64,000 nucleotides of DNA. Source: Branchiostoma floridae (lineage: Eukaryota; Chordata; Leptocardii; Amphioxiformes; Branchiostomatidae). The notes under the pieces are model-generated. The model was given only the letters and a program-made list of their open reading frames with translations. It ran no database searches and was not told where the DNA came from. Location of the stretch: NCBI RefSeq assembly GCF_000003815.2, contig NC_049990.1, forward strand, positions 4,068,094 to 4,132,093, in the 5' to 3' direction. Shown one piece after another: positions 26,200-55,394 of this stretch (the first letter of the stretch is position 1; each line of letters starts with the position of its first letter). A program made the translations under genes and the position numbers.

Positions 26200-29100
26200 A
26201 TGGCTTGGAGAAGGGGAAAACTTACGGCCATTCTACTCATATTTGAGGTACGTTTACTTAATGATAGACTTTGAAACCCTTTAGTTTGTTCGTTGGCTGT
26301 TGATGAGTGTACATTGTTGGTGTGCGCTGGGGTTAGAATCAACTCAAATGGTGCTAATGGACGTGGGAGATGTTTGTTAGGGCAAACTTTTGATGTCAGC
26401 TTTCGGGAAAATTGGTTGGTAAATGTTGTTACGGAGAGGGAGAGTTTATACCAACTGCTGGGCCGTGGCCTCGAAAACATCGCCCGACGCTTCTCAATTT
26501 TCCCTCCGCACTCTCACTAAAAGTAGAACAACTTTTCCTTCTTTTGTGCGTCGAATATGGCATAAACTGGACAAAAGATCGGTACGTTTCGACCGCATTA
26601 CGATGGGATCAACATGTTGTTTTTGTGGTTAGCGTCCTAGTTAGCGGATCTAGTTTGTTTACTGAGCGTTGAACGCGTGCCTGTAAGTTGTGTACTCTGG
26701 ACTGAAAGTATTAGGTACCTCCCCCATTGCCTACCTGTGATGTCTAGGCCACATTTACAAACCGGGGCCCCGCTGACGACAAATGAAAATGTATACCTAG
26801 AAATAAACACAAATCATCTCCTTTTTTACGTATTGTGTACTTTTGGTGTATTCAAAATCATACTTTTCGTTCCTGAAAGCTGTCCGGTTTGCCCCGGTTT
26901 GGAAATGTGACCTAGGCATGAGTGGGGGTTTTTCACGGGATATTCCTTTACAGCTGTTTACTTTAGCTAACTTTTCCTCCATATCTGTTCCCCTACTGGG
27001 TGGTCCTCATCGTGTTGTTTGGGATTGTATATTTTGGTGTCTTTTGTATCATATTTTTCGCTCCGGAAAGCTGTCTGGTCTTGCCCCGGTTTGACCTAGC
27101 CATAAGTGTGGGTTTCACTGGACATTCCTCTACAGCTGATATAACTATTCCTCCGTATTTTTATTCCCCACCCACAGGTGGTCTTCATCGTGCTGTTCGG
27201 GATCCTGGTGGTGTATGATGACCAGGCGAACGCCACCGCCACCCAGAACAGCCTGACTCCGGCTCAGGGCGGGGCCGATGCCGACAACAACGTGCTCAGG
27301 GCCTACTACCCGAGTGAGTAGAGTCGAGCCCCCGCCACGCCCCCAACGCACCCAGCATACACCTAGGGATCTAGGGACAGACCATTTGCGATGGGAGGGG
27401 GGTATTCACCAGACAAGGGTCATCCAACGCCTTTTTTTGACGTCCTTCTTAGTAGGCGTTTAGGTCGGCTTTTTTTATGTTGTCAGGTTTTCTTTTTTCG
27501 CCAGCAAAAACGCACAAAGAGACAAAAAGTCAAGCCGGAGCGTAACCTCTGCAGTTTAACAAGAGGTACTTTCCCGAAAGTACAAGAAGATTATAACAAC
27601 ATGTTAATCTATGTTTCTAACGCTGGTATGCCTTGTTGATTGTGGCGAAATAGAGCATGTCATTAGGGATTCCCCTTGATAAACACACTGTACCCTTAAA
27701 ATTCTTTCTTAAGCTTTTATGAAAACTTTAAGGACAGTTCTGGAATGTTCTTTCACATCACCTCACCTCACCTAGTCCCCCATACTTAATCAATAGTGAA
27801 AGAACAGGAAATTGAAAGGTTGTAGGATTTCGTCCATTTGAGGCTTGACCATATGTGTGGGTTATGTAACCATGGATACGCCCCACTTCTGCCCACGTAC
27901 ACACCCTCTGACGTCATGTGACGTCACCTTTCGTCATGCGATTTATGTTCATCTCATCTCATTTCTTATAACTATGCCAAGGTTCCCCGAAATGTCTTAC
28001 GAAAATTTATCACTTCTCTCTCTGGCAAAGACCCAGTTCTCTCAGCTTGAAGGAGGGCCTCGAAGTTTCCAATAGGAGTAACCGTCATGCAGACATTTCT
28101 CAATTGTTTCACAGTCACACCATTGTTACTTTGATACCAGTTGTATTGGGTAGTGAACGCACCATTGATCCGCGTAATTTTGTCACCTGTCGTCTTTTCT
28201 CTGATATTCTTGATACTCGAAACACTTGGGCATAGAGGGTACGGCAATCAATGGTTCAGTCACTTAACACCATTCCTGAGAAAAGTGTTTTCTACATAGT
28301 CTTAATTAATAATTTCTTAGTGCCAGAGGGGTGAAATTCAGAAATGGGTACGTTGACATCCCCTCCCTTCTGGGTCACTTGCCAACTCGTTAAGATGTCA
28401 AACCTCATCATGTTGACTTTGATATTTACAACTTGTTTTCAACATGGGTCATGGCTTATGTGAGCTGTAATTTGTAACACCGTGGTAAAAAGATTTACTT
28501 GCGGATAGAATGTATTAATCATCATATCTTGTCGTGCCATTACTACAACCAATTCAAAGGGTGTTCGTTCGTGTAGGTCTTGTCAGTCATATTGGAACAC
28601 AATTGGCACTGAATAAGAATCTTTTTTTTTTTGGTTGTTGTTTTTTTGTTATGTTATTGTTATTGGGTGGGCCGACTACTCACTCTTTGCAGCCAGGGGC
28701 TGAATTGCGAGGAGCTTACAATGAGCGGGGCTAAATCGCAAGGGTCTGGAGCGAGCTGCCATTCGGCGCCACTCAGGTGACCTCAATACGACTGTCGCAA
28801 GTGTCTGGAGCGAGCTGCCATTCGGCGCCACTCAGGTGACCTCAATACGACTGTCGCAAGTGTCTGGAGCGAGCTGCCATTCGGCGTTTTTGTTAACCTT
28901 GTAATGAAAACTGTTCATAGGGTAGAAACTTCCCATGCTGTTTGTGTAGCAGGGTATATTTTTACTAGGAAGGGTTGCTAGCCCTTCGCAACGTTCGAGG
29001 CACCTTCTCGAACATGGAACCCCCCTTTGACGTCCCTTCCGAAAGACGAGTGCAGCCCCAACCAAGATGCCGTTCTTTGAACCGGGCTCTTCCAGTCACA

Positions 29101-35100: not shown

Positions 35101-38100
35101 TGTTATCTTTCCGCTCCGCTAGTCTGATATTAATTACCCCCGACAGTTGACAGCACAGTGGTCACACTTAATGGGACAGGCGGGGCTCGTTATCCTTCAC
35201 TAGCTAAAGGTGCGAAAAACAACTCTTCAAACAAAGGATCTGGTGGATAACATGGCAGGAAGGTGTATACTATTCCCTGGGGGTGTCTTTGGCCAATGAA
35301 AGTTCACGCGTGCATTTTAGAAGTAAGGTGTACGCTTCCAACTTGTTTTGCACGTCTTCTTGTGGCGTTTTGTATGTTATTCCACCCAACAGTTATCAAG
35401 AATAGTGACATGATAGGCATGGCTAAAACGCATGTTGAAGCAAAGCCACATTACACTATCAGCTATCGAATAAGTATTACACTTCGTCGGAAGTCTTTCG
35501 CCTCGAGTGCGACCCTGTTGTTTTCTGTCGGTGGGGTTCAAATCAAAAGCCGAAATCTCGCACTTATGTATGCTTGGATATTTTGCCAGAATTTCGCAGG
35601 GCTCATTACTATAGCGCTTCGAAAATAGCCTTTGCGTTATTCAGTTCACAAATAAACGAAAAAAAATCAACGTTAGTCGAAAACAAACGTTAACCCTTCT
35701 TGGCGAATATTTAGAATCTCACTACACGTTCCCAGTAATAAATCGACCCGTTGCGTGTCACCAGTTGAAAGGTGGGATCTGCGACATCGCATTCTGCCTA
35801 AAATGAACAGCAGGAGTCGAAGACATTCTCCAGATCCAAGGAGCTCAAAGGTCACCAAGGAGCAAGTGTTAGAGCCAAGCTGTTTCCTTAAGGAGGAAGC
35901 GTTCTCACCTTGGCTAAGACTAGCGTCTTGGCATGGTTGACTGCACTGGCTGTTTGGGTAGTGAAGCTTGCCCTCAGTATCCACAGGTGTTGACAACCTG
36001 CCATCAAAACAGATGTCATCACTTTCCTAGGGGCAGACGGCCTGAACTATGAGGGGAAATAGCAAGGGCGTTTTAAATGATATAGCTATTTTGTGAGAGT
36101 CTAGCCAAGGAGATTATATGAGACAACCCACCGACAAAACAGATGTCATCACTTTACTATGGGTAGCCGGCACGGATAGCCTAATGATGAATAAATGAAT
36201 AAATAATGAAGGTTATCGGAAGGAAGGAAGGAAATAATAAATCAATTGCAGTCCTATAATCAATCAATTGATTGGAGTCTATGGGTGAAAATACACAGTG
36301 TGTTCTGACTGGTACTGATTCTCACCGCTATATGTAGTCGATATAGGTGTCGCTTTTGTGTCGAAAATACAGTCCCAGACGTGTTTGTATCCCCTCCTCC
36401 CGGTTCATCTCTGGTGAGAGACTTTACTGGTTGTGTAAAAGACAACCCCAATATTCTGCGTTCTACTGACTTAATGAAATTATTTTTGGAGGTAATGATG
36501 ATATTGGATGATAATGCCACACCTCTCCCTCTCCAGCGTTCCAGATAACCTATGTCGCCCCCCGTCTCTGTTCAGCGTTGTATAATAATATTATACGTAG
36601 TGGTGCGTACCTAAACTCATATTCAAGTTCAGGTCCGGATTCAGGTCCGGATTCAGGTCCAGCAGTTCAGGTTCATCATCTAAACCCATCATTGAATATT
36701 ATATTTTTTTAGGGGCAGGGGGTGGTACATATAAAATTACATGTTGTCATGAATTGACATGCAGTGTGAAAAATACATGCAAATTATATACAGCCAGTGT
36801 AAGTACAAAAGGTCAGTAATAAAAACGAATATTTTTTTGCCTTTTTCCAGTGTAAATTTCACTATCTATGGAAGGTTTTAGTTGGTTTAGAACAAAAAAA
36901 AGGGAACATAAGTGAGGGATAGCTTTTTACGGGTTTTTAGGTACGCACCACTTATTATACGTCTCTCTCTTCAGTGTTCCAGGATGTGCACGTGATGATG
37001 TTCATCGGTTTCGGCTTCCTGATGACGTTTCTGAAGAAGTACGGATTCGGCAGCGTTGGGTTCAACTTCCTGGTGGCAGCCTTCGTCCTGCAATGGGCCA
37101 CACTCATGAGCGGATTCCTGCATCTGCACCATGGCAAAATCGTGGTGGACATCACTACGTAAGTGCCTTCGAATTCATTTTACCTAGAAGTACCATAGAA
37201 TAGCTTCAGAAGTTTCTTGAGTGTTGGCTTCAACTTCCTGGTGTTGGCCTTCGTCCTGCAGTGGGCCACTCTCATGAGCGGGTTCCTGCATATGCACCAT
37301 GGCAAAATCGTGGTGGACATCACTACGTAAGTGTGAAAAGGCGTTATGCCTTACGTTGTACCCCAAAACTACATTAGAATAGCTTCGAAGTTTCTTGGGT
37401 GTTGGATTCAACTTCCTGGTGGCTGCGTTTGTCCTCCAATGGGCAACACTCATGAGCGGATTCCTGCATCTGCACCATGGCAAAATCGCATTGGACATCA
37501 CTACGTACGTTTGCTGAGCGACAGGTAGTAGTCTCTTGAACGTGATGGAAGAGGTTGAATTGACTATGCAAAACAGCCGTCATGAGCTACAAAGACGGCG
37601 AAAGAATGGGGATTGAGTAAATGCGGTACAGTCAGTACAACAATGTTCTTGATCGGAAATGGGGCGTCCAAGAAATAATGGTTTGGTCAACAGTGAATAC
37701 AGTTGGCAATCATGATGGACACAAGAATGAGGATGATGCGTTTACAGTGATGGTAGAAATTAGGATGGCAATTGTCGATGATGCTAAAGATGGGACTGGG
37801 TATGATTTTGGAAAACCATTGCTATGTGGCTTAAATGGCGTTGTTATTTCCTGCAGCCTGCTGACGTCTGACTTTGCTGCGGCGGCGGTGCTGATCTCCA
37901 TGGGGGCGGTACTGAGCTATATAAGCAGTAGAAAGGGCAAAGATGTTGATGAAGGTTATATTGTGTTATTTTTCTGTAGCCTGCTGACGTCGGACTTCGC
38001 TGCGGTGGCGGCACTTATCTCCATGGGAGCGGTGCTGAGTTATATAAGCAGTAGAAAGGATGAAGACTATACATGTATTTTGTTATATGTTGTAGCCTGC

Positions 38101-41100
38101 TGACATCAGACTTCGCTGCGGCGGCGGTACTGATCTCTAGGCGCGGTTGTGAGGAAGGTCTAGAGTACCGATTCAAAGCCGACTTTTGGGCTCCTAAATG
38201 ACGGTAGAAAGGATAAAGATATTGATGAAGACTATTGTGTTGTCTTCCATAGCCTGCTGACGTCGGACTTCGCTGCGGCGGCGGTACCATGGGAGCGGTG
38301 CTGAGCTTTCTGATGATTTGATGACAATAGAAATGATTATATTGTGTTGTGTTTTGCAGTCTGCTGACGTCAGACTTCGCTGCGGCGGCGGTGCTGATCT
38401 CCATGGGAGCGGTGCTGGGGAAAGTCAGCCACATCCAGCTCATCATCATGGCCTTCGTGGAGATCATCTTCTTCTCCATCAACGAGTGGGTCGGACTCAC
38501 CTTCTTCAAGGTCAGGACAAAATGGTTGCATTGGTTATGTTATTTCTAATATTTTATAGATCGGCGGGGTGTTGGGAACCCAATTCTATATGGTTAGTTG
38601 ATAGAGCTGTAAGGCTATCAATGCCAAGGAAAGACAAGGTATAGAAGAGCCGCTATAACATAGCTGTATCCGCCTTCAATTGACTTGTTAAAGTTAGGTC
38701 TTGCATGTTAGCTTTAAGGTAATGAAAAGGTAAAGCAGCCATCCGTAGTTGGGAGGAAGCATGCCGCATGCCGCTTTTGAGGTTGTTGTGGCTAGTAGCA
38801 GATTCGCTTCAACCAAGCACCCCCTCCCCACCCCACACAAAACGTCTCGATAAGTGTGTGAAAGTTTTCAGAAACCTTTGAAAGTTTTTAAGGGGGGATA
38901 ATATAACATTCGTTTCCACAGGCCGTGGACGTCGGCGGTTCCATGTTCGTGCACGCGTTCGGAGCGTACTTCGGGCTTGCGGTGGCGCGGGTGCTGTACC
39001 GGGAGGACATGGTCGGGCACAGCAAGGAGGGGTCCAACTACCACTCGGACATCTTCGCCATGATCGGTAAGGGCATGGTCCTATTTATCATACGATCGCA
39101 TTCTTGAGATAGTCGCGCACGTGACACACAAATAATAACTGCCTTGTTCTTGTTTGAACCTTTATTTATTCACGAAAGCTCACATCGGCCTGCAGGCCGC
39201 TTTTCATTGAGGTCATGAGGGAAGAGGCAAGGGTCAGGTAAAGTATATAACAGAGATACAGTTACATTGTTTAGAGTCCTAATGAGTCTTATATCTCTAT
39301 ATGCACAATTTTTACATACATACAAAGAACGAAACTGCTACATGATTCAAGTCCGTTCATTTGGCCGTTTCCATTGTTCTTGTAAGTGGTTGGTTCTCTC
39401 ATAGCCAGCTCCAAAACCCTCAGTGCCTTTACTCAGGAACAACATTTGCCAGGTGCAGGTGATTTTGAATCTTAGTTGCACTAGTGCTGGCATGCAAGAA
39501 AAACGCATTCCGATCCCTGCCATTTGAAGGGTCAAGGATGACCTGACTGGCCCGACAATATCCATGGCTGTATCTTGTTAACCACATGTTGATCTTATCG
39601 TGCCCCTATCTTATGTACTAACTACTTGTCCTTAAAGCTACACAGCCTGATACGTTCTGACCAGACCTGTCAGTCATTGTGGTGCATTTTTGGAAATCTT
39701 GTTACAACTAGCGACAAAGTGGAATCTAGTCTTTCTACAGTGTAGAATTTCCAGCACATGTAGAAATCTCAGTGTCTACCGGTGTGTCTATATATTACAC
39801 TAAAAGCCTCAGAAATACATACTGCAGTGTAACTTTACGTCACATACCAGGCGTGTTCGTTGAGAGTGTTCTGTAACAACACGTCAAACTGAGCTGCCCC
39901 TGTCTTCATGACGCGTCAGTCCCTACACGCCCTTCTCATACGTTTTACGGGTTAGGGTTGGAGACCTGGTCTACTTTTCCGTGACAGGTGTCATCGGGAT
40001 CCATGTGGGACGGACCACTCGATCCACGGTGACGAGTTTAAGCTGTTACTTTAATACTCTGAGGGAAAATCTTAAAGCTTACATGAAATGAAATTTCCAA
40101 TTTTAACGCGTCCCTGGCTTCAGAAGATTCATCAAACTTACAAAGTAAATACCCAGTACTTTGCTTGCTGCACGAGACAGTTTTAGAAGTTGTCAGGGAA
40201 TGTTAAGTATACTATCTGTAATGTTTTCCCGCAGATACTGTGTTGCTGTTCTGGCACAGTTTTAACGCCGCCATGACTGATGAAGTAAAGACCAGTTGTA
40301 AGAAAATGTAAACTAGACCATCTCTAATATTTCCTCTCAGCAAGGAGGTTTTTTTTTTAACCTCCATGCTCTCAGGTACCGTGTTCCTGTGGCTGTTCTG
40401 GCCCAGCTTTAAGTTTAACGCCGCCCTGGCTGCTGAAAATATTAACAATTTGAAAGTAAAGAACTAGTGCGTCACTAGGCGAGCCAAACCTAGTGCGTTA
40501 TTGTCAAATAAAGAAAACTAGAATATGTATTTATTAATGTCTGTCTTGCTAGGTACTGTCTTCCTGTGGCTGTTCTGGCCCATCTTTAACGCCGCCCTGG
40601 CTCCCGGAAAATATAGAAACCTGACTATCTGTAATCATTTTCCCACAGGTACCGTATTCCTGTGGCTGGTCTGGCCCAGTTTTAACGCCGCCCTGGCTCC
40701 CGGAGATATCATCAAATTATCAAAGCAAAGACTAGTGCATTACTGTACAAGAAAGTTTAGAAGAAGAAAATGTGAACTAGACCATCTGTAATATCTTCCC
40801 ATCACAGGTACGGTCTTCCTGTGGCTGTTCTGGCCCAGTTTTAAGACAGTCCAGAAGACACAATCATAGTTAAGACCAGTTGTAAGAAAAAGTATATTAA
40901 TCTATTTTACTACAGGTACTGTCTTCCTGTGGCTGTTCTGGCCCAGTTTTAACGCGGCCCTGGCTCCCGGAGACGACCAGCACCGAGCCGTCATCAACAC
41001 ATACTTCTCCCTAGCCGCATGCGCAGTAGTCACCTTCGCCATCTCCTCAGCGGTGGAGAAGGACGGCAAGGTCAACATGGTAAGGTCCCGGATTTAAACT

Positions 41101-44100
41101 GATAAAAATGTTGATGTTTCCATAGTTATTTCTTTTTAAGCATAATTCAGAAAAATCAGAATTATCACCAAAGAAAAACTTTCAAAGTCTTAACAAATCA
41201 GTACAGAACTGGAGCTCGAGGAAAGCTCTTACGCATATGATATATGACTCTAAGCCCTAATAGAATTAGAAGTTAGGAAAATCCTCAACCTTTTGATAAA
41301 TCTTCCTTCACGGGGGTAATAATCAGTAGCATCTTGAATTGCTGTTCTATTTTTGTCAAATTTGTCAAATTATATTATGGCTTGACAAAGAAACAAAGAT
41401 CGGGAAAATTCTCAATAATTACAAACAAAACAATTTACAAATTCAGATAGGACGATAGTATTCTGGAAGACTAGTTATACTTATAGAGAACTTACGTTGA
41501 AAGGTTTCCCCATAGGCCTAACGCCATTACCTTTTGATCAAGTTTCCTTTAATTAGGTTACTGTCCAATACTGATTTTTATAGATCCGATACTGATATTT
41601 CTAGATCCGGAAAATAAACCGACCAAAATCTAAATGCCAATAGAAACATAGCCTTCTTCAGGCAATGACAGTGAACTTTTAAAAACAGATTGGGAAAGTC
41701 TCCATAATAACGAACAATTTATAAATTCCGATAAAAAGGTAGTCTTCTGTAAGTAGTTATTGATAATTTACGGCGAAACTTTCCCCTCCCACAGGTTCAC
41801 GTTCAGAACGCGACCCTGGCGGGGGGCGTGGCCATCGGGACGAGTGCAGACATGATGGTCCACCCCTGGGGGGCGCTGCTGATCGGCAGTATCGCCGCCG
41901 TGCTGTCTGTGGTCGGCTACTCCTACATCACGGTAAGGATATCAACGCTGAATTATTCATTACAACATATATTGAACTTGACATAAACAGGTAACATTTT
42001 TACCTTTTAAGGTCCTTTTAAAAGTCCTTTCCTCATTGCACTTTGTGTGGATTTATTTTACCTTCAAGTTGAAAAAGACTACATTTGACCGAGGAGGAAG
42101 CCCTAGCCCTTAGATCCTTGTATAACCTCCTTGGATTAACTCACTGACTTACATGTTTATGGAAGCCCAGCTTTGTGGAGGGAGAGAAGATGACCATACT
42201 TTCTTCATATCCCATTTTGATACAAACATCCAAAGAGCCTTTTTAATTTTTTTATAGGGGCTCACAATACATTTTGACAAGCGGCACAAGCAACCCAGTA
42301 TACTAAAACGAAACGGCAAGCTTAAGCAAATTCAAGTGTATTGTGAGTCCCCCAATAACGAGAAAAAAAGCCCAGAGAGCCTGCTATAGAGGCTAACAAC
42401 ATCAGAATAATTCAGATTTTGTGGAATTTTGCAGCCCTTCATGGCGGACAAGTTGAAGATCCATGACACGTGCGGAGTGAACAACCTGCACGGCATGCCG
42501 GGAGTTCTGGCCGGTATTATCGGCGCCATCGTAGCTGCTGTGGCTTCACCGGCACAGTATGGCAACAGGTGGGGCGACTCTTTCAAAACACAGAAGCACA
42601 TGAATATAGTTAGGTACCTTTTTTCAGCTTTTTTCAGCTTTATATATCAAGATTTACATGGAACTGGCAATGAAAAAGTCAGATATGATAATTTCTTTGC
42701 AAGGCCAGTTTAAGTCCATCTAAGCGCGGTGACGTCACCAGCACAGTGTTGCATCTGAGGTGGAGCAACTTTTTTTCAAAAACACATATATGTAGTTATG
42801 ATCCTTTTGTATTAAGCTTTAGAATAATTCAATTTTGATAACAAGATTTATGTAGAACTGGCAACGAGCAAAGGGATGATCAGATGTTTTATATATTTCA
42901 TCTGAGTTTAATTGCGCATCAAAGCTGGCAACAGGAACCATTTTAATGTTTAAGCAACTGCATTATCATCTTCCATTAGACCTGACTAACAAATCGTGTT
43001 TCTGACATGATGCTGTTCACAGTGCTGTTAACGACATCTTTCTGCCATATTATGTTTCGCAGCTCTCAATGATGATGACTTTTTCTTCTACACAGTGTGT
43101 ACCAGATTTTCCCCGCCCGAGCTCCCATCGAAAACAGCACGGAGCTGGCCACCATCCAGGCCGCCTTCCCCGCTATTGAGGCTGGTAACGGGCGCTCGGC
43201 CGGGCTGCAGGCTGGCTTCCAGATGGCTGCTCTTATCGTCTCCGTACTCGTCGCTCTGGTGACTGGCGCGCTCACTGGTAAGGTTACCATTATCAAACCA
43301 GTCTCATTGTATCCACCTGTTGTCTATTCTCTTACCCCCCCCCCCCCCCAACCCCATCCCGTAGACTACAGGGCCTCTTAGTCGAGGATTTCATTCTTCG
43401 TTGCTCTCGTTCTTGAGAGACCCTCTCATTCTTAGTTCTATCTAGTCAACCCAGTCCATACACTATGCTTGGATTGCAATCGTAGCAATTGGGGAACAAT
43501 TCAGACGGACCTTCCCAGATTACGTTTTGTTTCTAACACAATATACAGAGTAATTATACTTCAAGCATGTCACTTAAGAGTTGTTGTGACATGCAAGTGA
43601 TATGATAAATTACTTTTGTCCTTCTCTAGGCCTCCTGCTGCGCCTGCCGATCTGGGACCAGCCTGAGAAGGACTCCATGTACGAGGACGAGGATTACTGG
43701 GAGGTGAGTACCGAGAGTACTTCCGTTTTGGTTTGTCTTTTTTAATATTTTTTGGTTTATGATCTGTCTGACAAATGACTCAATCTCTCATTGGAAGGTG
43801 GAGCCCAACCCTCTCCTCCCACCTCTGTATACTTCCCCAACCGAAGTTAAGGTACCCATTTTTACACTTGGGTGGCCTAAGGAAAGTCGTGTTAAGTGCC
43901 TTTCCCACGAGCAAAAGATTGGTGGCATGGGCCATGATAGGATTCGAACCCAGGACCTCTGGGTTCTGGGCCCACCAGTTACGCCACATGACCCTTGAGC
44001 TTGAGGACAAAATCAATTTCTAGTATTCAAGATTTCTCCTACGCAGAAACATCCAACAGCACAAGCAAACCACTTCTTGTCTGTACTCTGCTATCTCAAC

Positions 44101-44488
44101 CGTCACCATCAGTTTCTGACTGCCCTGCTTATAAATATTAATGAGATCACCCTAATAGATGAGAGATCCCTTTCGAAAACTGAAAGGCCTATTCTCTGAT
44201 TGGCTGACAGATGGTTTGTGGTGACACCCACAGGAACTGATAGCAGAGTACAGACAAGAGGCGGTTTGCTGGCGCTGTTGGATGTCTCTGCGTAGGAGAA
44301 TGTATTGTTTTCATGAAACAGAGGCCTAGTGGACTTTAACGTTATTCCACCATCTCTCTCACCCCCAGATACCAGAGGAGGAAGCCGTGGACATGAACGG
44401 CAGTCTGGAGGGAGTTGGGCACAAGAAGCCGGACAGCAGGGCAAGGACCGAGTCCGACACCAACAACGAGCAGGACACCAAAGTGTGA
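26200..44488 (+). CDS. RHBG/RHCG-like: Rh-type ammonium/ammonia transporter (11 coding exons, 491 aa)
   Basis: Member of the Amt/Mep/Rh family: a multi-pass plasma-membrane channel for NH3/NH4+ (possibly CO2), usually trimeric. Coding exons, all with GT-AG borders and matching phase: 26200-26247, 27178-27313, 36975-37158, 38360-38510, 38922-39066, 40916-41079, 41795-41932, 42435-42568, 43096-43277, 43630-43703, 44369-44488 (stop TGA). They sum to 1476 nt, the usual Rh length. Family signatures seen in order: MAW start and hydrophobic first helix; an extracellular loop with NAT as a possible glycosylation site; [13 protein letters not shown] with GFGFLMTF (exon 3); [12 protein letters not shown] (exon 4); HAFGAYFGL (exon 5) and NNLHGMPG (exon 8), which supply the two pore histidines; [12 protein letters not shown] (exon 6); and an acidic cytoplasmic tail. 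The assignment to the B/C-type Rh glycoprotein group rather than erythroid Rh is by overall resemblance. Exons 7-11 are repeated downstream. Confidence 0.93.
26834..27177 (+). repeat. Exon-edge tandem repeat before Rh exon 2
   Basis: A unit of about 180 bp is present twice: TTTTGGTGT..GAAAGCTGTC..CCCCGGTTTG..ACAGCTG..TTCCTCC, followed by the first about 35 nt of exon 2. The upstream copy (GGTGGTCCTCATCGTGTTGT at about 26999) has lost the acceptor AG; the second copy is the real exon at 27178. Confidence 0.8.
28740..28887. repeat. 60-bp tandem repeat, 2.4 copies
   Basis: The block GTCTGGAGCGAGCTGCCATT, continuing through GACCTCAATACGACTGTCGC, is repeated almost perfectly at about 28744, 28801 and 28861. 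The last copy is cut after CATTCGGCG. Confidence 0.95.
29266..29346 (+). repeat. tRNA-derived SINE-like sequence
   Basis: GTGGCTTTGTGGTTAGCG resembles a tRNA-like A box and GGCTTCGAGTC resembles a B box about 35 nt later, a typical pol III internal promoter spacing. It runs directly into the foldback at 29359, which may be the body of the same element. Confidence 0.55.
29359..29559. repeat. Foldback element with GTCGTACGATCG arms
   Basis: GGGTCACATAGGTCGTGCGA..GTCGTACGATT (left) pairs with GATCGTACGACGCTCGCACA..TTTGTGACC (right). A fragment of the same family is at 12903-12975. Confidence 0.75.
30827..31066. mobile_element. Foldback MITE with CCTGGG..CCCAGG ends (copy 2)
   Basis: TACCCTGGGAGCCAG (left) pairs with CTGGCTCCCAGGGTA (right). 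Internal sequence follows 24152-24390 closely, including the central GTTTAAGCCCGA palindrome. No direct flanking repeat is apparent. Confidence 0.85.
31762..31970. mobile_element. Foldback MITE, family A (copy 3)
   Basis: CTCTACCAGGCTCCACAGG (left) pairs with TTATGTGGAGCCTGGTAGAA (right). Pairing continues through GGAGTTAGAT against ATCTAACTCC. Arms match 13119-13429 and 5056-5231. Confidence 0.85.
31990..32129. mobile_element. Foldback MITE, AGTATTCTCCAAGCAGAGG ends
   Basis: TATTCTCCAAGCAGAGGTTG followed by GGTCGCG pairs exactly with CGCGACC and CAACCTCTGCTTGGAGAATA on the right. The arms are almost identical, which suggests recent activity. It abuts the preceding foldback. Confidence 0.9.
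32166..32375 (-). repeat. tRNA-derived SINE, minus strand
   Basis: Shares AAGTCGTGTTAAGTGCCTTT with the SINE at 43785-44005. On the minus strand it has a B box GGTTCAAATCC (complement of 32314-32324). Diverged relative to the other two copies. Confidence 0.7.
33059..33126. repeat. (GATA)n and (GA)n microsatellite
   Basis: Interrupted GATA repeats with a central GAGAGA block. Confidence 0.9.
33792..33962. mobile_element. Pogo/Tigger-like MITE with TA target site (copy 1)
   Basis: CAGTAGAAGCCAGTTAATTG at the left and a TGACTTCTACTG right end are inverted relative to each other, and TA lies on both sides (33790-33791, 33963-33964). It is homologous to 53462-53617. No transposase is present. 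Confidence 0.85.
34618..34985. repeat. Probable decayed foldback element
   Basis: GGCCCCTTCACATTC at the left is partly complementary to GTGTGAAGAGGGCCC at about 34860. CATTCTAA and ATTCGAACATTCTAATCTC repeats lie inside. The ends are uncertain. Confidence 0.45.
36601..36950. mobile_element. 350-bp TIR element just upstream of Rh exon 3
   Basis: TGGTGCGTACCTAAA (36601-36615) and TTTAGGTACGCACCA (36936-36950) are exact 15-bp inverted ends. It lies only 24 bp before exon 3, so it has displaced or become part of the polypyrimidine/branch region. No transposase is present. Confidence 0.85.
37221..37509 (+). repeat. Exon-edge tandem repeat after Rh exon 3 (2 extra copies)
   Basis: The last about 105 nt of exon 3 plus its donor are repeated twice downstream: about 37222-37326 (donor GTAAGT) and about 37400-37504 (donor GTACGT). 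Both keep an open frame in phase with exon 3 and encode nearly the same residues (VGFNFL through DITT). The segment before each copy is a degenerate version of the upstream exon sequence without an obvious acceptor. The true exon ends at 37158. Confidence 0.9.
37840..38315 (+). repeat. Exon-edge tandem repeat before Rh exon 4 (4 extra copies)
   Basis: The first about 60 nt of exon 4 with an acceptor AG occurs four times before the real exon: from 37857, 37980, 38096 and 38253 (real start 38360). Each begins CCTGCTGAC and runs to about GCGGTGCTGAGC, then leaves homology into ATATAAGCAGTAGAAAG-like intron sequence with no donor. Copies c and d are shorter or internally deleted. Confidence 0.92.
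39150..39640 (-). repeat. LINE-tail repeat, family C (copy 3), in Rh intron 5
   Basis: CTTTATTTATTCACGAAAGC and GGCCTGCAGGCCGCTTTTCA match 19820 and 23660. This copy extends further, to about 39640, and on the minus strand could hold a decayed end of a LINE coding region. No intact frame. Confidence 0.55.
40215..40915 (+). repeat. Exon-edge tandem repeat before Rh exon 6 (5 extra copies)
   Basis: Acceptor AG plus the first about 35-60 nt of exon 6 recur from 40235, 40376, 40553, 40649 and 40808, before the real exon at 40916. Spacings range from 96 to 177 bp. All five carry an AG directly before the edge; most keep the family residues FLWL..WP and FNAALA. None has a clear donor. The copies at 40553 and 40649 are joined in one open frame that ends at 40791. 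A CT-rich to GA-rich flank accompanies most units, so the repeat unit includes both intron and exon sequence. Confidence 0.93.
43785..44005 (-). repeat. tRNA-derived SINE in Rh intron 10
   Basis: On the minus strand the A box TGGCGTAACTGG (complement of 43975-43986) and the B box GGTTCGAATCC (complement of 43940-43950) are at tRNA-like spacing. The body runs on to about 43785. The same insertion is in copy 2 (52652-52872), so it predates the duplication. Confidence 0.8.
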
Positions 44489-44515
44489 AGACAGGAGAAC
44501 TAGACTAGTACAGAC

Positions 44516-44613
44516 TAGCCTGGATACGAGACCCCAGCCCGAACTCAAAAATGTCTATCGTGTAGGATAGATAGATATTTTTTAGATCGGGCTGGGGTCT
44601 GGTATCCAGGCTA
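44516..44613. mobile_element. hAT-type MITE in the Rh 3' UTR, copy 1 only
   Basis: 98 bp, TAGCCTGGATACGAGACCCC on the left paired with GGGGTCTGGTATCCAGGCTA on the right. Exact 8-bp target duplications GTACAGAC lie at 44508-44515 and 44614-44621. Copy 2 has the empty site with a single GTACAGAC at about 53377-53384. Confidence 0.93.
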
Positions 44614-44724
44614 GTACAGACTAGCCTCCTCCACCGACCTTTCTGTGGGCGTTTGTATGTATGTTGTTTTGCACTGGGAAGGTTCTTATGCTGTGAAAGG
44701 AATATATGCCAGGGAGCTTGTAGT

Positions 44725-44831
44725 CGAGTCTGTGTAACACAAACTCCACTGTCCAGGTTTGTAACTGGCCCCTCTCCGCGGAGTCCGGCAGATGTTGGGC
44801 GGGCTGCTATAAGCAAGATTAAATCAGGCTA
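44725..44831. mobile_element. Small hAT-like MITE, copy 1 only
   Basis: Element of about 107 bp beginning CGAGTCTGTGTAACAC and ending GATTAAATCAGGCTA, homologous to 10571-10658. The flanks CTTGTAGT and CTTATAGT look like an 8-bp duplication with one change. Copy 2 reads straight through (GAGCTTGTATTCTG near 53629). Confidence 0.8.
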
Positions 44832-45087
44832 CTTATAGTCCATCCACGTCCATGCCAAACGGCCGTGTTTTTGATGGGCCTTGTAGGAACCGAAAGGGCA
44901 CAGGCCCGCTGTGGACAGACTAGAAACTCCCCGGCATAAGAACCTTTCAGGTGCCAAACAACATACGAAAGTCCACAGAAAGGCCCATGGACTGGAGGCT
45001 AGATACAGACAAGCTGGTTAATCTAGACTCTACCAGGCCTCTAAGTCGAATTGAAAAAAAAACAGTCGACCCAAATAGTGATAGGGA

Positions 45088-45299
45088 AACGCTAGCTCAC
45101 CTCTATCCGTGGAATAACCTATACTCGTTGTTATTACAAAGTTAACAGGGGATCTATATTTGCAGGGATATCAAGTCGACAGACTGTGGTTTCAAACTGC
45201 AATATTTCGAAAACATTGCACGGCTTAATGCCCCTAAATACCCTGTTTTTAAAAACAATGGATATAGGTAACCCCGTAGATAAAGGTGAACTAGCGTTG
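45088..45299. repeat. Foldback MITE, family B (duplication copy 1)
   Basis: CTAGCTCACCTCTATCC on the left and GATAAAGGTGAACTAGCG on the right match the arms of 7061-7277. The corresponding element in copy 2 is at about 53895-54100. Confidence 0.75.
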
Positions 45300-46240
45300 A
45301 TTAACGCCAAGGTAGCCGTTGAGAAGGAAAACCAACTTTCCTGTTGTTATTCGGTGATTCTGTATCAATAGAGGTAGAATTCATAACAATCTGAGTTTAT
45401 GATTAGTTGTAAGACAATTATGTTATAAAGTAATTTTGAAATTACGTATTTCTAGATTAAATCTCACGTGGCCACATGTCTACCAAACAGTGATGTTTTC
45501 CATCTTAGCAATGATAGGTGTGCCAGTTTATTCTTGGGTGGTAAACGGAATTTTGACCAATGAAGCAATGTACTAACGGACTCTGTGATAACCGGACCAA
45601 TGTTAACATTGTTTTGCTAGTTATCTTTACCTACAGCTGAGGTCTTTGAAAAAAAAAAAACTTCTAATACAGTGTAGTTATTTTTTTGAGCACGCGATCA
45701 TGTTAACCCTGTCAAATGTATTAGGAATGTGCCTAATATGATCATACATTTAACACTTTAATTTGTGATTATGCCATGGTATATACAGTTCTTTCATAGA
45801 GTTAGAACGCTTTAGCTATTGGTCATAACATAATGCAATGTTTTTTTGTCCATTGAGAATTTGTACAAAGCAGGTTTGAAGCACCCCCTATAGTTTACTA
45901 ATGGTACTTCATGTTTTACTTAGACAAAATATTCAAATATACAACACTTTGTGCCTTCCTGTACGCTTTAAGGATAAGAAAACGACAGCAAAAACTTATT
46001 GGTGCTGTAATGTTGTTGTATAAGACTAGCTATGGAATCGAGCTGTTCTCTGTTCTATTGTAGCTTGAATTTGTTAGTGTGTAGCTACTAGTAGTATTAT
46101 AAGCCTTGTATATGATTTTTCAAGTTCATAAACAGGTAAATGGTTTGTAGATGTAGTGCTAGTATGTGTCTAGTTGGTTTACAGGGTGACTAACAAATTA
46201 TGTAAGTTTTGCTCACATTTATAAGGATTTATGAAGTGAC

Positions 46241-46246
46241 ATTAAA
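46241..46246 (+). terminator. Candidate Rh poly(A) signal ATTAAA
   Basis: ATTAAA within a stretch conserved between the duplicate copies (equivalent at 55086-55091). If used, the 3' UTR is about 1.75 kb and includes both copy-1 MITEs. No transcript evidence is available. Confidence 0.4.
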
Positions 46247-47416
46247 GCTATACTAACTCAGGATTTCTACTGTGGTCTCTTATTATAATTTATATACCCG
46301 GTAACTGTTTTTTATCCAAGTATGGACAATTCCAGTACTGAAACAACTGCAACTCCACTGTCACATAATCATCAAGAACCAAACTCGAAACAGTTTTCTA
46401 ACAGCTCAGCTAAGAATCAAGCTTCCCAAATTTGTTGTGATTTGGAAGATGGCCCAAAATTGGTATGAATAAACAAACACTATCACTGTCAACCAAAATA
46501 TGGCTTAGCACAACTCAAATATATGCAGATGCAAGGATCTGTGTTCTATGGGTTCTTGTAACATTTTTTGGTACATCTTTCATGCAGTTTTCACTCGGCC
46601 CTTGAGACTTGGCCAGAACCAATGCCATGTGGACAATGACTAGTAAATGAACATAATAGAAATTCAGTATACATACCGTATTTAAAAAAAACACACACCC
46701 AAGATGTTGAATTATTGACTATAATGAAATATTCTCCTAACATCTAGTACATACATGTATTTTGCACCTATTGTCAATAGAAGTCTTTTTTTCTACACAA
46801 CTTCAAGAACTATACAATAACTAATGTTCTACTTCTAGGAGAATGGATAGGACAAATGGTTACAACAGACTTCACAAACTAACAGTGACTAAGATAATTA
46901 TAACGCAAAAAAAGGTAATGTTATTTGTACAACAGTAAAAGGAAATACCCCTAGTAATTGGACCACTATACAACAAAATATGAAAACAAAATCTAATCTA
47001 ACGCCATTGAATATACCCAGTAAAAAACAAAGTTTGCAAACTGATACAGCACTTGTTTGGGGAACACAGGGAACAATTGTACAACACATGGTGATGAAGA
47101 CAAGAATAAGGCAACTAAAACGAAACTTCTGTAACAAAAAGTTTTGCACTTTCTCAAACACAAAGTCTTGACAATGGAAAAGGTATGAAAAGAATTGAAG
47201 AATTTTTGCTGCCATACACAACACATTTGGTATTAGACGAAACAAGACAGAAACAAAACAGCATTATGTACAAGACAAGGAAAACAACTATTAAGTACAT
47301 AGAATACATGTGTGACTCCACCTAAAGCAGAATAAAAATAGTTGCTGCTACAGAAACAAATACTGACATACATGTTTGGCATTCTATATACACAACATTG
47401 AACTTTTTAATGTTGG

Positions 47417-48033
47417 GATAGAAACAGGCATGGTGGTGGAGTGATGATATATGTTAGTGACCATCTATACTCAGTAAGACGTAACGACCTTGAAAATGAT
47501 GATATTGAATCCGCATGGTGTGAAATAACTAAATCCAATGTTAGTCTCTTGATTAACTGTACGTATAGACCACCCTCAGCAGACAATACCTTCTTTGATT
47601 TCTTCGAGTCACAACTACAGAAAGCCACAAGTTACACACAGTCTGTGAAGTTTATCGTAGGGGACTTTAATTCTAAGAACAGTAATTGGTTAAAAAGCAA
47701 CATCACAGATAACCCTGGACGCCAACTGGAAAACATTCTTTTGGACTATGGACTTGAGCAAGTACTACATGAGCCCACTCGCGGTGGAAATCTACTAGAT
47801 CTGATCGTTACTTCCCACCCAGCGATGTGCAACCAAACCGGAACCACTGCACCCCTTGGGGACTCTGATCACTTAACAACTGTTGTAACACTGAACCTTA
47901 AGTCTAGTCGGCCCGGTGGTAGAAGGTTTGTCTGGTTGTACAAGAAAGCCAATTCCGAAACACTTTGTGAAAATCTCAACAATGCCCCTTGGAATGTAAA
48001 TTTTGTCTATGATTCAATGGACGATGTCTGGAT
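47417..48033 (+). pseudogene. LINE endonuclease domain (N-terminal part missing)
   Basis: C-terminal two thirds of an exonuclease-endonuclease-phosphatase-type domain: GGGVMIYV, TYRPPSAD, VGDFNSKN and the DSDHLTTV block with the catalytic Asp-His pair. The N-terminal catalytic region is absent because of 5' truncation. A one-base deletion at about 48031 moves the frame so that this part no longer reads into the reverse transcriptase; the alternative frame continues to 48247 as nonsense. Confidence 0.85.
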
Positions 48034-48045
48034 TCCTGGTATTCC

Positions 48046-50070
48046 ATGTTCCTCACAATATGCAAGCAACACATTCCCCACAAGCTTGTATCAACACAAA
48101 GAACTGCTAAACCATGGATTCACGGAAACAAGGAGATCAAAAGTGCGATCCGCAAAAAACATCGCCTCCACTCCAAAGCTAAACAGATGGACACCCCAGA
48201 AGCCTGGTCACGCTACAGGAGCCAGAGGAACTTGGTCACTGCCCTGACACGACGAGCCGAGGCTACCTACATCAGGGAAGTCTTGGAAGACGTAGAGGGC
48301 GGAAACACGAGACGTCTGTTCAAATACACCAAGACGGTACTAGGGCAAGCCTCAACAGGTGTGCCGGCTTTTAAACTGGGAACTAACGTCCTTGACTCTC
48401 CAAGAGAAAAGGCTACAGCACTGAACGACTACTTCGTACAACAAACCAACCTACCTGGCAGAGATGACTCTCCCCCTACTTTTCGCCCACCTGTCGCTCC
48501 CGAGACACTCCTGGAATCACTACATGTAACAGTGGAGGAAGTACGTCAACAACTCCTCACGCTTAAAGTTGGGAAGTCTTGTGGCCCAGACGACATTACA
48601 CCAAACCTCTTACGGCGTGTGGCTGACCCTATTTCGGCACCTCTGACCAAACTGTTTAATATGTCGCTGTCCCGCGGCCAAGTGCCCTCCATGTGGAAAG
48701 ACGCAAACGTCACGCCAATCCACAAAGGTGGCAGTCGCCATGTTCCCAACAACTACAGGCCAATATCCCTTCTGAATATCATCCCCAAAGTCCTGGAAAA
48801 TCTCGTAAACAAACGCCTGGCGGAGCACATCTACCCAATGCTGACTCGACACCAAAGTGGCTTTCGCTCGAAAGACAACACAACTCTCCAGCTACTCCGT
48901 CTGGTGGACGAGTGGACCAAAGCCATGGACAAAGGAGAGGTGGTCGGAGTCGCATTTTTGGACCTACGCAAGGCCTTCGATAAGGTTTGGCATAAGGGCC
49001 TCCTAGCCAAACTTGAAGGGTACGGAATTCGAGGGCCCTTACTTGAGTGGTTTGGAAGCTACCTCACAGACAGACGTCAGCGAGTTGTTGTTAATGGTGC
49101 GACCTCCGACTGGAAGACCCCCCTTGCTGGCGTCCCACAGGGCTCTGTCCTTGGGCCTACACTTTTCATCTTATACATAAACGATCTACCCTACAGATGT
49201 ACTGCATGTGAAGCGAACTTGTTCGCAGATGACACTTCAGTCTCAACAGCCCACCGCTCCATCTCCATCGTCACAGACTCACTGAACAAGGATTTGGCCA
49301 CTGTATCCGACTGGCTCTTATGCTGGAAACTCGAGGCCAACAGAGACAAGTGTAAGGTCATGTACCTCACTTCCCGCCCCCTCCCACGTACGATCCCACC
49401 AGTCATCCTGGCTGGTACCACACTACAGATTGTCTACAGCTTCAAACACCTAGGCGTGACCATGACTCACAAACTCACCTGGTCCCTCCATGTTGAAGCT
49501 ACAACAAACAAGGCCAGACGTACAGCCGGCATGCTCTGCTGTCTACGGAAGAAAATCCCCAAGACCACACTTCTACAGTTGTACAAGACCTTGACTAGAC
49601 CGGTACTGGAATACGCAGACATCGTTTGGTCCGGTCTCACTAAACGGGACGAAAAACTCATCGAATCTGTTCAGTACCGGGTCGCCAGAGTGATTAGTGG
49701 ACTCCACGGCTTTCCTTACCCTTCCTATCGTACAGTCTACGCCCACCTTGGTCTTCCATCGCTCATCTTCCGTCGCAAATTCCACTCTCTGACTGCCCTC
49801 TACAAACTGACCAATGGACACTGCCCACCCCACCTTTGCAATCTCCTACCCAGTACCAGGTCATCAGCCATTCAATCTAGATACCCTCTTAGAAACGGAA
49901 ACAGCCTGACAATACCAATTCCCAAAAGTGCACGTACCCAGAAAACCTTCTTCCACAGAGCCACCCAGTTGTGGAACATTCTCCCACTTGAAACTCAGAC
50001 AGCTCGCTCATTGTCCACCTTCAAGGCCAAAGCCTGGCTCTCTCTTGGAGACCCATTCTCCGTTAACTAA
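48046..50070 (+). CDS. LINE reverse transcriptase (intact frame, part of a truncated element)
   Basis: A 674-codon open frame covering the linker and the whole reverse transcriptase. Motifs in order: SCGPDDITPNLL, NYRPISLLNIIPKVLE, HQSGFR, FLDLRKAFDKVWH, GVPQGSVLGPTLF, the catalytic FADD (about 49222-49233), then the thumb with HLGV. The enzyme would copy element RNA into DNA at a nicked target. The natural protein begins upstream in the endonuclease domain; the ATG at 48046 is just the first after the frameshift. The frame lacks stops in RT, suggesting a fairly recent insertion, but the element cannot be autonomous. Confidence 0.9.
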   Translation: MFLTICKQHIPHKLVSTQRTAKPWIHGNKEIKSAIRKKHRLHSKAKQMDTPEAWSRYRSQRNLVTALTRRAEATYIREVLEDVEGGNTRRLFKYTKTVLGQASTGVPAFKLGTNVLDSPREKATALNDYFVQQTNLPGRDDSPPTFRPPVAPETLLESLHVTVEEVRQQLLTLKVGKSCGPDDITPNLLRRVADPISAPLTKLFNMSLSRGQVPSMWKDANVTPIHKGGSRHVPNNYRPISLLNIIPKVLENLVNKRLAEHIYPMLTRHQSGFRSKDNTTLQLLRLVDEWTKAMDKGEVVGVAFLDLRKAFDKVWHKGLLAKLEGYGIRGPLLEWFGSYLTDRRQRVVVNGATSDWKTPLAGVPQGSVLGPTLFILYINDLPYRCTACEANLFADDTSVSTAHRSISIVTDSLNKDLATVSDWLLCWKLEANRDKCKVMYLTSRPLPRTIPPVILAGTTLQIVYSFKHLGVTMTHKLTWSLHVEATTNKARRTAGMLCCLRKKIPKTTLLQLYKTLTRPVLEYADIVWSGLTKRDEKLIESVQYRVARVISGLHGFPYPSYRTVYAHLGLPSLIFRRKFHSLTALYKLTNGHCPPHLCNLLPSTRSSAIQSRYPLRNGNSLTIPIPKSARTQKTFFHRATQLWNILPLETQTARSLSTFKAKAWLSLGDPFSVN

Positions 50071-50335: not shown

Positions 50336-50600
50336 ATGCCTCTACATAGGCAGGTGCCAGATTTGACTCAAGGAACATTGTTTTGAAGGGCAAGTCTTCA
50401 CTCCGAAGTATTCAAATACAATTCAATCTCTGCAACTGGAGAATTGTTCAGCCAGTTCATTCTAGTGACACTGAAGAAGAGTGATGGATGTCAATCAAAA
50501 CGTCCGGAAGTGAAATCTCAGTTTTTATCCAGTTGTAGGGATTAAATTATTATAAGTAGTTATAAAGAACTTACGACGACCACCCACTCCCCTCCCACAG
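50336..50600. other. Duplication junction
   Basis: 50336 to about 50405 matches 56677-56749 (GCCTCTA..AGGCAGGTGCCAG) and so is the end of copy 1. About 50406-50552 matches neither copy and contains CAAAACGTCCGG and GAAATCTCAGTTTTTATCC, possibly another element at the breakpoint. Copy 2 homology starts near 50553. Confidence 0.6.
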
Positions 50601-53355: not shown

Positions 53356-53461
53356 AGACTGGAGAACTAGATCAGTACAGACTGGCACCCTCCGCTGGCC
53401 TTTCTGTGGGCGTTCGTATGTTGTTTGGCACCAGGAAGGTTCTTATGTGGGGAAAGGAATA

Positions 53462-53617
53462 CAGTAAAAGCTAGTAAATTGCACATCTGATAATTGCACA
53501 GAATCCCCAAATCCCGTGATGGTGCAGTTCAGCTTGATGACTTCGTTTTGTTGCACCACCCGGATAATTGCACGAATTCGCTGGCAAATCAGGTGTGCAA
53601 TTAAACGACTTCTACTG
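53462..53617. mobile_element. Pogo/Tigger-like MITE, copy 2 only
   Basis: CAGTAAAAGCTAGTAAATTG at the left, ACGACTTCTACTG at the right, and TA on both sides (53460-53461, 53618-53619). The empty site is read in copy 1 as GGAATATATGCC (near 44699). Homologous to 33792-33962. Confidence 0.93.
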
Positions 53618-53894
53618 TATATGCCAGGGAGCTTGTATTCTGTTCACATTCATGCGAAATGGTCGTGTTTTTGATGGGCCTTTGTAGGAATGAAAAGGAT
53701 GCAAGCCCGCTGTAAAGGGGCTACAAGCTCCATGGCATATACTAGTATTCCTTTCCTGGCATAAGAACTTTCCCTGTGCAAAACAATTCAACGCACAAAA
53801 CATCTACAGAAAGGTTAGCGGAGGAATCTAGGTACAGACAAGCTGGTCTCTAGACTCTAGCTGGCCCAAAGTTGGCCCAAATAGGGAAACTTGG

Positions 53895-54100
53895 TAACGC
53901 TAGCTCACCTCTATCCGTAGAATAATCTATACCCGTTGTTTTTATAGACAGGGTATCATGCTTTTTAGGGATATCAAGTCGAAAATAATTTCAAACCAGT
54001 CCGTTGGTTTGATCAATGATGTCCTTAAGTACCCTGTTTTAGAAAAAAAACGGATTATGGTAACACTGCGAATAAAGGTGAATTAGTGTTAATTAACGCT
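53895..54100. repeat. Foldback MITE, family B (duplication copy 2)
   Basis: Counterpart of 45088-45299, more complete in the centre. Confidence 0.75.
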
Positions 54101-54267
54101 GAGGTAGCCGTTGAGAAGGAAAACTAACTTTCCTGTTGTTATTCGGTGATTCTGTATCAATAGAGGTAGAATTCATAACAATCCGAGTTTATGATTAGTT
54201 GTAAGACAATTATGTTATAAAATAATTTTGAAATTACGTATTTCTAGATTGAATTTCACGTGGCCAT

Positions 54268-54367
54268 NNNNNNNNNNNNNNNNNNNNNNNNNNNNNNNNN
54301 NNNNNNNNNNNNNNNNNNNNNNNNNNNNNNNNNNNNNNNNNNNNNNNNNNNNNNNNNNNNNNNNNNN
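54268..54367. other. Assembly gap (100 N)
   Basis: Placeholder of exactly 100 N inside duplication copy 2. The matching copy-1 sequence (about 45470-45507) suggests the true missing length is only tens of bases. Confidence 0.99.
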
Positions 54368-55394
54368 GCAATGATAGGTGTGTCAGTTTATCTTGGGTCA
54401 CGTGTAAACGGAATTTTGACCAATGAAGCAATGTACTAACGGACTCTGTGATAACCGGACCAATGTTAACATTGTTTTGCTAGTTATCTTTACCTACAGC
54501 TGAGGTCTTTGAAAAAAAAAAACTTCTAATACAACGTAGTTATTTTTTGAGCACGTTATCTCGGTCAAATGTATTAGGAATCTGCCTAATATGATCATAC
54601 ATTTAAAGCTTTAATTTGTGATTATGCCATGGTATATATAATTCTTGCGTAGAGTTAGAACGCCCTAGCTATTGGTCATAACACAATGTTTTTTGTCCAT
54701 CGAGAATTTGTACAAAGCAGGTTTGAAGCACCCCCTATAGTTTATTAATGGTACTTCATGTTTTACTCAGACAAAATATTCAAATATACAACACTTTGTG
54801 CCTTCCTGTACGCTTTAAGGATAAGAAAACGACAGCAAAAACTTATTGGTGCTGTAAATTAATGTTGTTGTATTAGACTAGCTATGGAATTGAGCTGTTC
54901 TGTTATATTGCAGCTTGAATTTGTTAGTGTATAGCTAGTATTATAAGCCTTGTATATGATTTTTTCAAGTTCATAAACAGGTAAATGGTTTGGAGATGTA
55001 GTGCTAGTATGTGTCTAGTTGGTTTACAGGGTGACTAACAAACTATGTAAGTTTTGCTCACATTTATAAGGATTTATGAAGTGACATTAAAGCTATACTA
55101 ACTCAGGATTTCTACTGTGGTCTCTTATTATAATTTATATACCCGGTAACTGTTTTTTATCCAAGTATTGACAATTCCAGTATTGAAACAACTGCAACTC
55201 CACTGTCACATAATCTTCAAGAACCAAACTCGAAACAGTTTTCTAACAGCTCAACTAAGAGTCAAGCTTCCCAAATTTGTTGTGATTTGGAAGATGGCCC
55301 AAAATTGGTATGAATAAACAAACACTATCACTGTCAACCAAAATATGGCTTAGCACAACTCAAATATATGCAGATGCAAGGATCTGTGTTCTAT

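Follow-up and report, generated by a model that had tools for sequence, protein, structure and literature searches.

The window analysed here, a 64-kb stretch of the amphioxus Branchiostoma floridae genome, carries an Rh ammonia-transporter gene, whose translated exons match RhAG (E = 4.4e-117) and RhCG (E = 4.5e-116) and whose protein matches the Pfam family PF00909 (E = 4.4e-72). Nine exons were modelled, all on the plus strand: E2 (27178-27313), E3 (36975-37158), E4 (38360-38510), E5 (38922-39066), E6 (40916-41079), E7 (41795-41932), E8 (42435-42568, with the donor placed at 42569 by codon count), E9 (43096-43277) and E10 (43630-43703). The designation "exon 6" agrees with the model if a single first coding exon, unlocated, lies 5' of 27178. 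Exon 6 is 164 nt long, opens with GT, and is bounded by the acceptor CTACAG/GTAC (the slash marks the junction) and the donor ATG/GTAAGG at 41080; it is preceded by intron 5 of ∼1.85 kb (39067-40915), in which the feature described here resides.

The 3' half of the Rh gene, comprising exons 7 to 10 and downstream sequence (41750-46862), is duplicated in tandem ∼8.8 kb away (50553-56105), in nine aligned pieces with 73-97% DNA identity, and no copies of E2 to E6 were found in this duplicate. Coding differences between the two 3' halves are mostly synonymous, and three nonsynonymous E8 differences fall beyond the E8 donor (42569). The duplicated half may represent a haplotype that was retained, or else an alternative 3' end. 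Between the two copies, at 47411-50070, lie two overlapping open reading frames of 278 and 685 aa, which we take to resemble a non-LTR retrotransposon. The minus strand of the window contains a 736-aa leucine-rich-repeat open reading frame (14095-16302) and a cyclin gene recognized by Pfam (58477-59480).

The start of exon 6 occurs in six copies that are in register, with junctions at 40235, 40376, 40553, 40649, 40808 and, for the true exon, 40916. The five decoys (c1 to c5) occupy roughly the final 800 bases of intron 5; each is preceded by AG, and AG/GT stands at the junction in five of the six copies. In c2 to c5 the exonic match extends over 37-58 nt of the exon's 164 nt. As delimited by blastn and site scores, c5 (40808-40844) consists of an acceptor and the first 37 nt of exon 6 and c4 (40649-40706) of an acceptor and the first 58 nt, while c3 (40553-40608; blastn) has an acceptor and the first 56 nt, its reading frame remaining open through c4. 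Blastn combined with hand alignment placed c2 (40376-40431), an acceptor with ∼50 nt of the exon and a 6-nt insertion, and c1 (40235-40278), the most degenerate AG-bearing copy, which has a deletion of 9 nt and begins with AT instead of GT. The gapless match of c1 to exon 6 is only 15 nt, and its edge could be aligned (70%) only with gaps. The original prediction of six AG-preceded copies of the exon 6 start was confirmed. It was right that the repeat unit spans intron and exon, since the tandem copies include the exon 6 boundary with its splice site, and that only the last copy continues into a complete exon followed by a donor.

A headless relic further upstream, c0 (40097-40127; blastn E = 0.002), retains exon 6 positions 28-58 only. 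We counted it as a member of the array because c0 and c1 together align with c4 and c5 over 234 nt at 70% identity, an alignment which also suggests that units were possibly duplicated in blocks. Overall, divergence among the copies ranges from several to tens of percent, with indels in addition. When the 56-nt start of exon 6 was searched against intron 5 with blastn, the scores were 50, 48, 35, 34, 28 and 19, followed by 9; the best score in 100 dinucleotide shuffles was 13. These shuffles replaced an earlier control with a poor shuffle, which had reached 28. Tandem Repeats Finder at a score of 40 did not report the exon 6 array, probably because its copies differ by indels. The junctions are spaced by 141, 177, 96, 159 and 108 bp, and all five spacings are divisible by 3, which would occur by chance in ∼1 of 243 cases; this regularity was spotted after the fact and is peculiar to the exon 6 array among four arrays checked.

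Splice sites were scored in bits, using human frequencies. On these frequencies the acceptors of c1 to c5 reach 4.0, 3.1, 2.5, 4.3 and 3.6, compared to 5.3 for the true exon 6 and 2.9-7.3 for the real Rh acceptors (all nine modelled exons), and all of them lie above the 95th percentile (2.4) of 706 intronic AGs. The decoys are therefore of acceptor grade, and the prediction that the spliceosome would meet five competing 3' splice sites holds at this level. At exon 6 the true acceptor outscores all five decoys, but this does not hold at exon 4, where four decoys described below score 5.2, 5.2, 3.7 and 4.2 compared to 4.8 for the true site (human frequencies). Since two decoys outscore the true site, acceptor strength alone cannot account for the correct choice of exon 4.

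Donors separate true from decoy exons better than acceptors, though not fully. Real Rh donors score 2.8-7.3 on human frequencies (eight of nine scored, the E8 donor being left out), and the true exon 6 combines an acceptor of 5.3 with a donor of 5.3 at a distance of 164 nt. By contrast, the best donor within 300 nt downstream scores 0.5 for c1, 0.3 for c2 and at most 0.4 for the exon 4 decoys a1 to a3. The only donor within reach of c3 and c4, 255 and 159 nt away, is the AG/GT of c5 (CAG/GTACGG, 4.3), while c5 reaches the E6 donor at 272 nt and the exon 4 decoy a4 reaches the E4 donor at 258 nt. Within their own units, four of the five exon 6 decoys lack a donor of real strength; the exception is c4, at the c5 junction. 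The c4 acceptor (4.3) and the c5 GT (4.3) delimit a potential cryptic exon of 159 nt (40649-40807), containing an in-frame TAA that ends at 40791. With thresholds of 2.9 for acceptors and 2.8 for donors and a distance of 50-300 nt, this is the sole acceptor-donor pair in 1,810 nt of intron 5. Intron 2 contains 17 such pairs in 9,500 nt, intron 3 one in 1,170 nt and intron 4 two in 370 nt, and none were found in introns 6 and 7 of the Rh gene. One pair per 1.8 kb in intron 5 is thus no excess, given their presence in other introns.

As had been predicted, use of any exon 6 decoy would truncate the protein: joining E5 to each of the five, with the E6 donor retained, yields a stop after 20-79 codons. 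These stops fall 210-768 nt upstream of the E6/E7 junction, and transcripts using the decoys are for this reason expected to be degraded.

Exon 6 is not the only exon affected. Searching the window by blastn (E ≤ 0.01) with the nine Rh exons and 40-nt flanks, with exon ends off by up to 3 nt and the E8 end taken as 42588, 20 nt past its donor, we found edge copies at five of the nine modelled exons, at the acceptor edge of E2, E4 and E6 and the donor edge of E3 and E8; each copy sits on its own side of its exon. E4 is preceded by the four acceptor-edge decoys a1 to a4 (37857-38303; junctions 37857, 37980, 38096 and 38253), and E3 is followed by two donor-edge copies (37220-37513; donors at 37327 and 37505), both sets being delimited by blastn and site scores. 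Single copies are found at E2 (26968-27025; blastn and hand alignment), where the AG has been lost, and at E8 (42716-42808; blastn, ∼70% identity). Apart from the tandem duplicate of the 3' half, no edge copies were detected in the window for E5, E7 and E10; within this duplicate, blastn detected an E9 donor-edge copy that has lost its GT (52066-52159). A 47-nt match to the E8 acceptor edge far downstream (55618-55664; 72%, blastn E = 0.002) is unexplained.

Donor-edge copies also exist at two exons of the cyclin gene. At one of them, an array on the minus strand (58477-58896) follows the true exon end at 58856, with copies ending at 58739 and 58614, found by blastn, and at ∼58494, found by pattern only; the other exon has a single copy, recognized by eye and by pattern. 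The cyclin copies are more decayed with growing distance from the true donor. A further cyclin match at 59763-59821 (69%, blastn E = 4e-4) is unexplained as well.

Elsewhere in the genome, a DNA search that scored only the best candidates identified an Rh paralog on C1 as the only other gene matching exon 6. There are 47 PF00909 matches in the genome, and in five stretches inspected on C3, C4 and C9 no Rh-type exon 6 was found. The paralog carries three exon 6 decoys, one of them without AG, whose intronic halves resemble TTAGGG repeats and which sit amid such telomere-like sequence inside the intron (positions 7880-8549 of the C1 stretch L007), as well as at least seven exon 8 decoys; the latter count is a minimum, as it was made with a pattern requiring an acceptor, which acceptor-less copies would escape. 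We considered whether the exon 6 edge shared by both Rh genes reflects a hot spot or common descent and make no claim for either: all seven alignments between the two exon 6 arrays are centred on their exonic parts, and by simple arithmetic, with 5 of 18 edges affected here and two in the paralog, the odds of a chance overlap are about even. The exon breakpoints at exon 6 are close (56-58 nt in the window and 53 nt in the paralog), which we treated as one coincidence. The exonic part of the copied edge measures ∼51-58 nt in five arrays (E4, E6, the E9 copy, and E6 and E8 of the paralog), the exceptions being E2 (26 nt), E3 (>100 nt) and the cyclin gene (∼33 nt).

Local direct repeats are common in this genome. 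An unbiased scan of the window detected 50 pairs; three shuffles gave none. The window contains 18 repeat clusters covering 12.2% of its bases, and, at the same setting, 20 other 10-kb regions of C1 (35 Mb) and C12 (23 Mb), drawn from the 513.4-Mb genome, contain 34 clusters covering 11.8% of 197 kb. By number, the window has more clusters than this baseline (2.8 versus 1.7 per 10 kb), and 8 of the 20 baseline regions have none. Seven of 32 exon edges fall in repeat clusters, compared to 4.1 expected by circular shift (P = 0.15) or 3.8 by independent placement (P = 0.14); clusters for this test were merged by hand and some exon ends are approximate, the shifted E8 end leaving the count unchanged. 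Special targeting of exon edges is thus not supported, and the edge copies look like the result of local duplication that chanced to cover an edge.

We next compared how the decoys diverge. The codon counts exclude c0 altogether, gapped codons in c1 and a4, the 6 nt inserted in c2 and the final codon of a3. The exon 6 decoys show 10 nonsynonymous and 6 synonymous changes, which at the codon level fits neutrality (P = 0.28). In contrast, the arrays of intron 3 keep a coding-like pattern that is not easily explained by neutral decay, with 2 nonsynonymous to 8 synonymous changes in the exon 4 decoys (P = 0.003) and 5 to 12 in the exon 3 decoys (P = 0.0002). Pooled over the three exons, the ratio is 17 to 26 (neutral fraction 0.70, P = 3e-5). 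Under a conservative null, in which the true exon was allowed to supply half of the synonymous changes, P becomes 0.051 for E4, 0.018 for E3 and 0.78 for E6, and 0.013-0.053 for the pool depending on the fraction used. In the exon 8 array of the paralog, counted without the 6-nt insertion of q3 and without copy p1, we observed 9 nonsynonymous and 6 synonymous changes, again in line with neutrality (P = 0.21), and the pooled E3 and E4 decoys (20 synonymous, 7 nonsynonymous) differ from this array (Fisher P = 0.047).

The exonic and intronic halves of the decoys were compared in a similar manner. In four disjoint decoy pairs, chosen from 16 possible in E6 and E4, differences were counted at 16 of 148 exonic and 65 of 154 intronic sites. 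Exonic identity exceeds intronic identity by 2-15 points in every one of the six gapped comparisons, the split between exon and intron being approximate for E8. The intronic halves may partly differ in ancestry, most of all in c2 and c3. We rejected a general rule by which exonic halves would survive longer than intronic ones, since in the eight-copy array of the paralog the decoys diverge among themselves equally in both halves (10.3% exonic, 10.4% intronic); relative to the true copy, divergence is 14.0% and 11.1%, respectively. As for reading frames, a1 is in frame with a2 and c3 with c4, and the decoys carry visible damage: a frameshift in a4, truncations in a3 and c5, and early stops.

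Tandem duplications of exon-intron boundaries, termed mirages, have been described in amphioxus globin, Adh3, TnC and PGBD5 genes (PMC3087553, PMC3902484), at least since the TnC (1998) and Adh3 (2002) papers that PMC3902484 cites. Published units measure 10-72 bp in Adh3, 60 and 108 bp in PGBD5 and 150-160 bp in the globins, with 2-7 copies where stated. Globin RT-PCR and Adh3 data are said to suggest that splicing is undisturbed by mirages, and a citing statement on the Adh and TnC mirages agrees (PMC3087553, PMC3902484). Like the mirages of BflGb6, BflGb9, Adh3, TnC and PGBD5, the exon 6 array duplicates a boundary together with its splice site, and either edge can be hit, in unrelated genes: acceptor edges at Rh E2, E4 and E6, donor edges at Rh E3 and E8 and in the cyclin gene, and edges in the paralog. 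Its five decoys and one relic are near the published copy numbers, and of its spacings (96-177 bp) only 177 exceeds the published 10-160 bp. Unlike those mirages, the exon 6 copies vary in length and degree of decay, and edge copies occur at five of the nine exons modelled for the Rh gene, with further ones in the cyclin neighbour and the Rh paralog. In the literature found on mirages and intron gain, with most subscription papers outside its scope, there was no Rh gene of this kind, and the papers found for amphioxus together with Rh or ammonium transporters dealt, judged by title, with other subjects.

Other known arrangements resemble the array in part. Dual-specific AGGT sites in tandem repeats, with an excess of multiple-of-3 units, are documented for human UBC (PMC10809524); as in UBC and VCX3A, AG/GT stands at most unit borders (five of six) and the spacings are multiples of 3. 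Unlike in those genes, the exon 6 units are half intron, an in-frame stop occurs in four of the five, and as donors four of the five AG/GT sites are weak on human frequencies. In the model of Rogers, and in the potato RdRp case (PMC4974935), introns are gained by tandem AGGT duplication, and a duplicated AG/GT could here too provide both ends of a new intron; in contrast to that model, the exon 6 duplication lies inside an existing intron, so the coding sequence gains none. Mutually exclusive or duplicated exons were rejected as an interpretation, because c2 to c5 end at 37-58 of 164 nt and no decoy other than c4, which reaches the c5 junction, has a donor of real strength in its unit.

Taken together, the exon 6 array is most likely, and in our view quite probably, an ordinary mirage that is mostly ignored by the splicing machinery. 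A piece of ∼160 bp (two spacings being given as 159 bp), covering the intron 5 terminus together with 56-58 nt from the start of exon 6, would have been duplicated in tandem repeatedly, the copies then decaying. The array would be one outcome of widespread local tandem duplication, which at times includes an exon edge, as supported by the repeat counts in the window and the 20 other regions, and its decoys are most likely non-coding by-products. On exon-definition grounds, the spliceosome would mostly ignore them, most being half an exon with an acceptor but without a well-placed strong donor, which agrees with the published statements on the globin, Adh3, Adh and TnC mirages; if a decoy were used now and then, the resulting mRNA would stop early and presumably be degraded. 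That the array itself calls for a dedicated suppressor or for regulated non-productive transcripts, as the original suggestion implied, is not supported, given the lack of any donor above 0.5 within 300 nt of c1 and c2 (human frequencies), the 10:6 codon ratio and the published splicing statements. Several observations weigh against the ordinary-mirage reading: the c4-c5 cryptic exon is of real-exon strength, c5 and a4 lie less than 300 nt from a true donor, the exon 6 spacings are multiples of 3, and the window clusters are denser than the baseline. Plain neutral decay is opposed by the lower exonic divergence in the older window arrays and the synonymous bias at E3 and E4.

These observations bear on other explanations. 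We consider it unlikely that the decoys, chiefly 40649-40807, form an array of poison exons that are spliced in conditionally and lower Rh mRNA via nonsense-mediated decay; both c4-c5 sites lie within the range of real exons, they are the only pair over threshold in intron 5 and an in-frame TAA ends at 40791, but introns 2, 3 and 4 hold comparable pairs, the codon changes in the array fit neutrality, published mirages are said to leave splicing undisturbed, and the scores rest on human frequencies. Even less probable is stepwise, harmless removal of intron 5 through CAG/GTAC copies acting as an acceptor and then as a regenerated donor. This would make sense of AG/GT in five of six copies and of the spacings, and has a precedent in the UBC repeats (PMC10809524), but as donors GTACCG and GTACTG do not exceed 0.2 on human frequencies and only the GTACGG of c5 reaches 4.3, the intron is short, and the true exon start would face the same re-splicing. 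There is very little likelihood that the array consists of decoys kept coding-like, whether the true exon converts them or they serve as alternative coding exons. The 20:7 ratio at E3 and E4 and its difference from the paralog array, the less diverged exonic halves in the four pairs and six gapped comparisons, and the mutual frames of a1/a2 and c3/c4 all point that way; against this, the pattern is absent from the exon 6 array and from the paralog exon 8 array with its equal halves, the pooled P is just 0.013-0.053 under the conservative null, a4, a3 and c5 are damaged and early stops occur, and the intronic halves may partly differ in ancestry. Lastly, an assembly error, which had been named as what would undo the prediction, has a negligible probability: although the BflGb6 mirage was once misassembled in a draft genome (PMC3087553, PMC3902484), the copies here have diverged from one another (several to tens of percent, plus indels), the contig spans 23 Mb, and the same kind of repeat occurs in the Rh paralog, the cyclin gene and other regions.

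We conclude that the feature is real and that the exon 6 array by itself is an instance of a described phenomenon; what is new is the density of mirages in one gene, its paralog and its neighbour, together with a hint of exon-half preservation. It is rather unlikely, in our estimate, that the exonic halves of older mirages are kept near the true exon by repeated gene conversion, with the selected exon as the source and the divergence in the intron 3 arrays being chiefly synonymous, and form an archive of past alleles; if this were true, intron arrays could hand past exon alleles back to the exon. The exon 6 array offers a natural test of how the spliceosome chooses one edge among six similar ones, and at both exon 6 and exon 4 it is a well-placed donor that marks the true exon. 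With five of nine exons affected in the Rh gene and decoys at the same exon 6 edge in its paralog, the two would be a good system for measuring the rate at which mirages originate and decay, and could show whether new introns ever arise from them or expression is reduced.
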